A DNA stretch of 64,000 nt from assembly GCA_902557655.1 (NCBI GenBank), contig CACEAZ010000002.1, forward strand, positions 42,501 through 106,500, read 5' to 3'. Numbering within the stretch: position 1 is the stretch's first letter; every line of letters begins with the position of its first letter. The notes under the pieces were generated by a model. It was not told the DNA's origin and did not search any database. It worked only from the letters and a program-made list of their open reading frames with translations. The position numbers and the translations under genes were made by a program. Shown here in pieces: positions 9,545 to 10,649 of this stretch. Source of the DNA: an uncultured Bacteroidota bacterium. Its GTDB lineage: Bacteria; Bacteroidota; Bacteroidia; Flavobacteriales; Flavobacteriaceae.

Positions 9545-9619
9545 GGGTCATTAACTCAGTTGGTTCAGAGTGTTACCTTGACAGGGTAGAAGTCACTGGT
9601 TCGAATCCAGTATGACCCA
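9545..9619 (+). tRNA. tRNA-Val, anticodon GAC
   Basis: Cloverleaf complete: acceptor GGGTCAT/ATGACCC, D-stem ACTC/GAGT, anticodon stem TTACC/GGTAG around TTGACAG (anticodon GAC at 9580-9582), T-stem ACTGG/CCAGT with TTCGAAT, discriminator A; no encoded CCA. Its last 21 bases plus two following bases are repeated 985 bases downstream (10584-10606), so this gene is the attachment end of a small insertion. Its likely original terminator lies beyond the insertion, at 10625. Confidence 0.96.
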
Positions 9620-9621
9620 CA
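9599..9621 (+). repeat. Left direct repeat (tRNA-Val 3' end), att-like
   Basis: A 23-base segment from the T-loop through the discriminator, repeated at 10584-10606 with one difference (A to G at the seventh base). It is the usual place for tyrosine-recombinase integration at a tRNA 3' end. Confidence 0.75.
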
Positions 9622-9630
9622 AAAAAAATT

Positions 9631-9647
9631 GTGTTGATTATCAACAC
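9631..9647. repeat. Palindrome near left end of mini-island
   Basis: GTGTTGATTATCAACAC has perfect 8-base arms around a single central base. A related palindrome lies at 10557-10569 near the other end. The two cores, TTGATTATCAA and TTGATAATCAA, are reverse complements of each other. Confidence 0.6.
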
Positions 9648-9716
9648 TTTACAAAACTAAAAAGTGTTCCCAAATGTTCGATTCGAACTAGTGAAAAACT
9701 AAATAAGATTTATTCA

Positions 9717-10424
9717 ATGAAAAATAAATTTTTATTACTTCTTGTCATATTAATCTCCATATCATCGTGCTCTACAGATGATGAAGACTTACCAGAATTA
9801 GAACTGAGTGAATATGAAATTGATGTTATCAATTACTTCAAAGATGTTGCTTTAGGCTTTGAATTTGGAAATGCAAGTAGCATAACTAGAAAATGGAATT
9901 CTGAACTGAAAATATTCGTTGGCGGAGAACCAAGTACTGAATTAATAGATGAACTGGAGGAGATAATATTGGAAATTAATGGATTAACAACAGACGGATT
10001 TCAGATAAATGTTGTAGATCAATTTTCACAATCAAATTATTATATCTTTTTTGGTACAGGTGCTGAATATGCTCAATTATATCCAAGTCAAACTAATTTA
10101 GTTGATTCTAATTGGGGGCTTTTTTCAGTTTTTTGGAATGGTCAAAATGAATTTACAACAGGACATATGTATGTAGATATATCTAGAGCGAATTTAACTG
10201 AACAAAAACATTTGCTACGTGAAGAATTGACACAGTCATTGGGGTTGGCCAGAGATTCAGAAGAGTATTTAGAGAGCATTTTCCAATCAGCATGGACTAC
10301 TACCAACGAATATGCTGAAATCGATAAAGATTTAATCAGATTATTGTACCATCCAGACGTAAATATTGGACTAAACGAAAATCAATTAGATGAAGTCTTG
10401 AGAGAAATTTTAATCAATGAATAA
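9717..10424 (+). CDS. DUF2927 family lipoprotein (mini-island cargo)
   Basis: A 235-residue lipoprotein. From ATG 9717 the leader ends in SISSC with the lipidated Cys at residue 18, followed by acidic linker STDDEDLPE. The frame is open further upstream into the tRNA, but only this ATG gives a signal peptide. The body has the DUF2927 pattern: WNSELKIFVGG near the N-terminus, a GTGAEYAQLYP segment, and the C-terminal LREELTQSLGLARDSEEYLESIFQ block. The function of DUF2927 is not known to me; the EExTQ block resembles a degenerate metallopeptidase helix. It is the only gene in the tRNA-bounded insert and looks like acquired surface cargo. Confidence 0.75.
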   Translation: MKNKFLLLLVILISISSCSTDDEDLPELELSEYEIDVINYFKDVALGFEFGNASSITRKWNSELKIFVGGEPSTELIDELEEIILEINGLTTDGFQINVVDQFSQSNYYIFFGTGAEYAQLYPSQTNLVDSNWGLFSVFWNGQNEFTTGHMYVDISRANLTEQKHLLREELTQSLGLARDSEEYLESIFQSAWTTTNEYAEIDKDLIRLLYHPDVNIGLNENQLDEVLREILINE

Positions 10425-10521
10425 ACAGTGTCTGCCTTTAAAAAATAATTTGGACAGAATCTGTCCACATTATTTTTCATTAGTTCTGTATCAAAAAAAG
10501 TGATACCAATGGGAACATAAA

Positions 10522-10540
10522 GTGTTCCCTTCGGGAACAC
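10522..10540 (+). terminator. Hairpin after the DUF2927 gene
   Basis: GTGTTCCC, loop TTC, GGGAACAC: a perfect 8-bp stem 98 bases after the stop codon. There is no strong T tract (CCTAAAATTTTAAG follows), so it may be a weak terminator or an element-end structure. Its left arm repeats the AAAGTGTTCCC at 9661. Confidence 0.45.
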
Positions 10541-10583
10541 CCTAAAATTTTAAGTTATTGATAATCAATTACTTAAAAGGTTA

Positions 10584-10606
10584 GTTCGAGTCCAGTATGA
10601 CCCACA
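10584..10606 (+). repeat. Right direct repeat (partial tRNA-Val copy), att-like
   Basis: Copy of bases 9599-9621 with one mismatch. The bases upstream (AAAGGTTA) do not complement CCAGT, so no T-stem forms and the copy is not a functional tRNA. The terminator at 10625 follows within 20 bases, as expected if it once followed the intact tRNA. Confidence 0.75.
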
Positions 10607-10624
10607 TTATAATAATTGAATAAG

Positions 10625-10649
10625 AAAAGCGCCGTTTGGCGCTTTTTTT
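10625..10649 (+). terminator. Terminator, probably the original one of tRNA-Val(GAC)
   Basis: AAAAGCGCC (10625-10633), loop GTTT and GGCGCTTTT form a strong GC-rich stem ending in a run of T to 10649. Its place just after the right-hand tRNA repeat suggests it served the tRNA before the insertion. Confidence 0.85.

Follow-up and report, generated by a model that had tools for sequence, protein, structure and literature searches.

An intact tRNA-Val(GAC) gene, called by ARAGORN at 9545–9620 of the window (the whole 64,000-nucleotide stretch of DNA analysed here; directional features lie on its forward strand unless stated otherwise), serves as the integration platform for a 985-bp unit bounded by two copies of a 23-nt core. 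Repeat comparison placed the left copy (attL; GTTCGAATCCAGTATGACCCACA) at 9599–9621, where it forms the 3′ end of the tRNA gene and carries the allele GTTCGAA, and the right copy (attR; GTTCGAGTCCAGTATGACCCACA) at 10584–10606, where the allele is GTTCGAG, the cassette's own. The copies are separated by 962 bases and differ by 1 mismatch in 23, an A-to-G change at position 7. Everywhere else in the window the core is matched with at least 6 mismatches, the next-best matches being other tRNA genes (6–7 mismatches), and the best match in 200 Markov-resampled 5-kb stretches always had at least 5, so the repeat is not a product of chance. Coordinates and resampling thus bear out the original prediction of a direct repeat of the tRNA 3′ end with one mismatch. 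The right copy had also been described as unable to form a T-stem, and it does lack the 5′ strand of that stem, with TTAG replacing CTGG ahead of the T-loop. As predicted, a single lipoprotein gene and no recombinase lie between the repeats.

Anatomy of the cassette

The cargo gene (9717–10424) encodes a 235-aa lipoprotein that matches DUF2927 (PF11150; E = 2.4e-28). A defence role was considered for this protein and set aside, because it has no PADLOC match.

On either side of the cargo are sequences shared with other cassettes. The conserved left end (9622–9695), the P′ side of the putative attP, was delimited by aligning 25 left ends, in which conservation ceases after AACTAGTGA. It contains a palindrome, GTGTTGATTATCAACAC (9631–9647), and a single arm-type-like repeat, GTGTTCCC (9664–9671), to which an integrase would be expected to bind. 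An inverted near-copy of the tRNA T-arm, with 1 mismatch in 15, also lies here on the reverse strand (9680–9694) and is retained in the left ends of most cassettes. The conserved right end (10442–10583; 17 right ends aligned), the P side of the putative attP, begins near a palindrome at its outer edge, TGGACAGAATCTGTCCA (10451–10467), that is terminator-like on both strands. Further in come three arm-type-like repeats, GGGAACA (inverted; 10511–10517), GTGTTCCC (direct; 10522–10529) and GGGAACAC (inverted; 10533–10540), followed by a long palindrome that adjoins the core (AAGTTATTGATAATCAATTACTT; 10542–10584). The right end repeats a TTGATAATCAA-like core of the left-end palindrome, such that palindromes with a TTGATAATCAA-like centre stand on either side of the core; GTGTTCCC itself occurs once per left end, and right ends hold up to three copies, inverse ones counted. 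Closed in a circle, the two ends would give a phage-type attP of about 230 nt.

Outside the cassette, hairpin arms at 10625–10649 form an intrinsic terminator. The original prediction had seen a strong terminator here and assigned it to the tRNA. The terminator-like hairpin is real, yet absent from the list of a consensus scanner, and the assigned role probably does not hold: in most relatives the same hairpin comes after an intervening SnoaL-like lipoprotein gene that has been lost in the window's lineage. It is therefore probably the terminator of that lost neighbour and not of the tRNA.

A family of cassettes at tRNA-Val(GAC)

Using the tRNA end first and then a composite of both cassette ends as queries, we found matches in 23 genomes from four genera and two families of small-genome Bacteroidota. 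The hosts comprise 8 genomes of the window's genus (counting G001, in which only a degenerate left end was seen), 13 of a second genus of the same family, one of a third genus and one, G492, of another family of the order. Other tRNA-bounded inserts with the same end repeats thus do occur in relatives, and the reading of the locus as a mobile element gains support; what had been proposed as a single mini-island, by contrast, turns out to belong to a cassette family whose members can form tandem stacks. Cassette-bearing genomes measure 0.9–1.5 Mb. Several of the host assemblies are titled uncultured Bacteroidetes and carry AG-series isolate names; we regard the AG series as single-cell data from the ocean, for which misbinning is less likely.

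Of 25 aligned left ends, 22 adjoin tRNA-Val(GAC) and the other 3 adjoin a preceding cassette, and tRNA-Val is the only tRNA used as a site among 44 genomes of two genera. The conserved left ends measure about 74 nt and the right ends 140 nt, with nothing further inward common to different cargo types. Cassettes with both ends span 1.0–2.9 kb; the right end is decayed or deleted in G005, G010 and G443. Each carries one or two genes, and nine cargo types were distinguished: the DUF2927 lipoprotein; a MUG113/T5orf172 protein; a CobW GTPase; a glycosyltransferase with a calcineurin-like phosphoesterase; a caspase–TPR protein; a GmrSD_N–HNH protein with PADLOC matches; a protein weakly resembling DUF4344; and two without a Pfam match. 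Because cargo orientation varies among cassettes, each cargo probably brings its own promoter. The cargo genes that were tested are under purifying selection (dN/dS 0.10–0.26), the value for the DUF2927 cargo against its copy in G005 (about 0.10) being derived from only 7 differences. No recombinase, conjugation or packaging gene was found in any cassette. The defence-like cargo, namely the GmrSD_N–HNH and caspase–TPR proteins, occupies two cassettes (L216:1861–4485 and L203:6562–9228).

Empty sites, transfer and the exchange point

Had all relatives carried the insert, the original reading would have been refuted; they do not. Two close relatives of the window with 95% flank identity, G007 and G013, are without the cassette, whereas the more distant G005, of the window's genus, has the DUF2927 cassette at 98.8% DNA identity. 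Upstream of the G005 tRNA, identity is only 76%, and the G005 copy has lost most of the right end. The G007 site aligns with the left end, and 2 of 300 shuffles align equally well; this site may hold a decayed left end, a point against the explanation favoured below, and G007 is better said to lack the cassette than never to have had one. The predicted empty site was found in precise form in G012, in relation to the array of two cassettes carried by the close relative G016: when the tRNA and the downstream flank are joined, 388 of 406 aligned columns are identical. These comparisons also dispose of a non-mobile origin, in which the right repeat would survive from a former tandem tRNA gene, with ordinary chromosomal DNA in between. 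The truncated tRNA copy, which is all that the right side retains, is what such a history could leave behind, but the explanation is refuted by the empty sites, by the same conserved ends on other, unrelated cargo in several genera and by transfer between distant hosts.

Tandem pairs of cassettes occur in G016, G191 and G450. A 2,231-bp glycosyltransferase cassette is second in the array of G191 and first in G450, G449 and G451, and its left end is also present in the third genus (G109, at a contig end). The cassette is 99.3–99.8% identical among G191, G449 and G451, compared with 66–72% for their upstream flanks. Judged by sequence comparison, this combination of changing array position and near-identity is cassette behaviour with recent transfer.

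Transformation or transduction followed by homologous recombination could in principle spread the cassettes in this way, with the site-specific recombinase extinct and the ends its relics. The ends are long enough to recombine, no integrase was found, and the decayed or deleted right ends of the three genomes named above fit such a scenario. We nevertheless regard it as unlikely: given identities of about 99% inside the cassette and 66–76% upstream, the recombining tract must stop near the border every time; cassette-free recipients offer no right-end homology beyond the 23-nt core; and most end motifs are conserved across several genera.

The arrays bear on a further possibility, that the cassettes are decayed cis-mobilizable elements (CIMEs) of an ICE or prophage that once resided at tRNA-Val, their integrases having been lost independently of one another. 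As excerpts of a published account describe them, CIMEs keep attL and attR after loss of their integration and transfer genes (PMC5704250). The cassettes resemble them in all these respects and in standing in tandem at a tRNA 3′ end, and tRNA sites are classic targets of ICEs and phages. However, whereas CIMEs are decayed ICEs or IMEs that move in cis with an adjacent integrase-bearing element (PMC5704250), the members of the arrays in G016, G191 and G450 are all integrase-less. The cassettes also differ from CIMEs in carrying one or two genes between standardised ends and in having no known parent: no intact ICE or IME with related ends was seen in the viral, phage, plasmid and related-genome collections searched. 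Nine cargo types that are all devoid of integrase, conjugation and phage genes, and the continuing mobility implied by recent transfer between species, likewise speak against independent decay, and we consider this origin very unlikely.

The two core alleles locate the exchange. At position 7, every one of the 22 tRNA copies carries A (GTTCGAA), and 16 of the 17 right copies carry G (GTTCGAG), the exception being a decayed copy in G008; this is the pattern that would be expected for exchange between attB and attP. Cassettes of different hosts whose right ends are related (G018/G191 and G442/G441) share their variants at position 9, which thus seem to move with the element; position 16, either G or C, by contrast mostly follows the acceptor stem of the host's tRNA. 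The exchange therefore falls between positions 9 and 16. In G449, the attR is GTATGACCC (L204, ~5663) and the host tRNA GTATCACCC; a simple crossover model does not predict this position-16 allele, which counts against the explanation that we favour below.

Candidate helpers and proposed movement in trans

Matching ends accompanied by an integrase were not found in IMG/VR (exact-pattern scans), in INPHARED or PLSDB (BLAST), in the two genera to which the window and G191 belong, or in samples of the family (397 genomes) and the order (395 genomes). Several partial leads were set aside. The few non-Xer tyrosine integrases of the two genera lie at other sites, tRNA-Asn (G012, G013, G451 and G453) or tRNA-Met (G450), and their att sites are without the arm repeat. 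One short palindromic match to the arm pattern in IMG/VR is about what chance would yield. The tRNA-Val 3′ ends in that database mostly belong to phage-encoded tRNA genes; besides these, L175 is an attP-like site that is unrelated and L171 a stretch with no tRNA gene, and the arm repeat is missing from all of them. The single viral match to the AAGTTATTGATAATCAATTACTT palindrome is an intergenic terminator-like palindrome among phage genes, and a Crocinitomicaceae MAG matches 27 nt of the right end without having the core (L155).

All 44 genomes of the two genera do carry at least one Xer-like recombinase gene, classed as such by its length and because it is nearly universal; other tyrosine recombinases are mostly missing. 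The host XerC/XerD could accordingly be proposed to recombine the cassette ends, as on mobile pdif modules, which would make a visiting helper unnecessary. Yet a tRNA 3′ end forms the core, and the complex ends of about 230 nt with arm-like repeats resemble a phage-type attP; nor do universal Xer genes account for the restricted host range. We think it quite unlikely that Xer moves the cassettes.

Instead, the 985-bp unit is in our assessment likely to be a non-autonomous, site-specific cassette that is moved by an integrase supplied in trans. According to this model, a complete attP would be split between the two conserved ends, with the tRNA-derived core flanked by arm-type repeats. A tyrosine integrase from a different element, for which a visiting phage, plasmid or island is the most likely candidate, would bind these ends in trans and excise the cassette as a circle, which would insert at the tRNA-Val(GAC) 3′ end and so restore the tRNA; passage of the DNA between cells would bring it to new hosts. 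Repeated insertion beside the tRNA would build tandem arrays, with tRNA-Val playing the part of attI in an integron that lacks its own integrase. Since recombinase genes are absent from all cassettes and the searches turned up no helper, the helper, and hence the arrival of the integrase from elsewhere, is something that we infer. The failure to find a helper counts against the model, and so does the fact that no free circular junction was seen for the cassettes. With somewhat less assurance, we favour the broader view that the family constitutes a distributed integron-like system, in which standardised one- and two-gene cassettes with attP ends share an essential-type tRNA platform, form arrays and depend exclusively on an outside integrase across several genera and at least two families.

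How far known systems provide precedents can be judged from their features. As in elements that integrate into tRNA genes by a phage-type attP, the tRNA 3′ end is duplicated, the tRNA is restored and empty sites exist. Dissimilar left and right ends and a single site, tRNA-Val in the 44 genomes of two genera, set the cassettes apart from MITEs. Phage satellites (PICIs, PICMIs and tycheposons) have their own integrase, which the cassettes do not, and the cassette end motif was not found in IMG/VR (exact patterns) or INPHARED. Integron attC sites have the core consensus GTTRRRY, and by inspection GTTCGAG/GTTCGAA does not fit it. The other comparisons draw on excerpts of the cited papers. Like integron cassettes and CALINs, the present cassettes are small, form arrays at one platform and depend on an integrase encoded away from the array and acting in trans (a dependence that for our cassettes is presumed); unlike them, their site is a tRNA-derived core with arm-like repeats and not a folded attC, and there is no integron integrase (PMC11389934). 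The ssrA islands of Dehalococcoides likewise follow an RNA gene in tandem; their repeats measure 20 bp, one fixed base distinguishes the gene from the repeats, and some members are without an integrase. Sixteen of these islands, however, have an integration module with the integrase DsiB, in contrast to our 1–3-kb cassettes, none of which has one (PMC3146451). The fGI-2 island of 'Ca. Methylopumilus' at tRNA-Lys also comes from streamlined plankton and has tRNA 3′-end repeats, these being 20 nt long and varying in number, with cargo of 330 bp to 42 kb and 1–63 genes (PMC10872708). It differs in phylum and in tRNA, and conserved ends, an exchange point and intergenus transfer are not mentioned in the excerpts of its description (PMC10872708). 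Tycheposons, as presented in the same paper, are cargo elements at tRNAs in marine plankton as well, but measure 4–200 kb and have a tyrosine recombinase, which the cassettes are without (PMC10872708). Tandem islands bounded by RNA genes, some without an integrase, are thus already known from these sources; in the excerpts of open-licence literature consulted, we found no description of an integrase-less family of one- and two-gene elements with standardised attP-like ends that spreads between species and occupies one tRNA in several genera.

Streamlined ocean bacteria exchange genes although few mobile elements are recognised in them. Ends of about 240 bp plus cargo are about the cheapest conceivable mobile unit, and such cassettes would allow surface proteins, enzymes and defence-like genes to be swapped without the burden of carrying a recombinase. 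The family also supplies a searchable end sequence for cassettes, circles and the helper in ocean metagenomes.

Some observations concern other sites and insertions. The tRNA-Asn(GTT) gene is a separate hotspot (L090, L091, L092, L223 and L224), near which G012, G013, G451 and G453 have a gene for a tyrosine integrase of 346–353 aa and G008 only integrase fragments. In the Crocinitomicaceae MAG, a right-end stretch of about 50 nt lies between two genes without the tRNA core (L155, reverse strand, ~833–885). Finally, G002 and G014 carry a 5′ half of tRNA-Val(GAC), reaching to near the anticodon loop, 150–190 bp upstream of the intact gene (L058:53–92; L050, reverse strand, ~2642–2680), which is the trace of a second kind of insertion at tRNA-Val(GAC).
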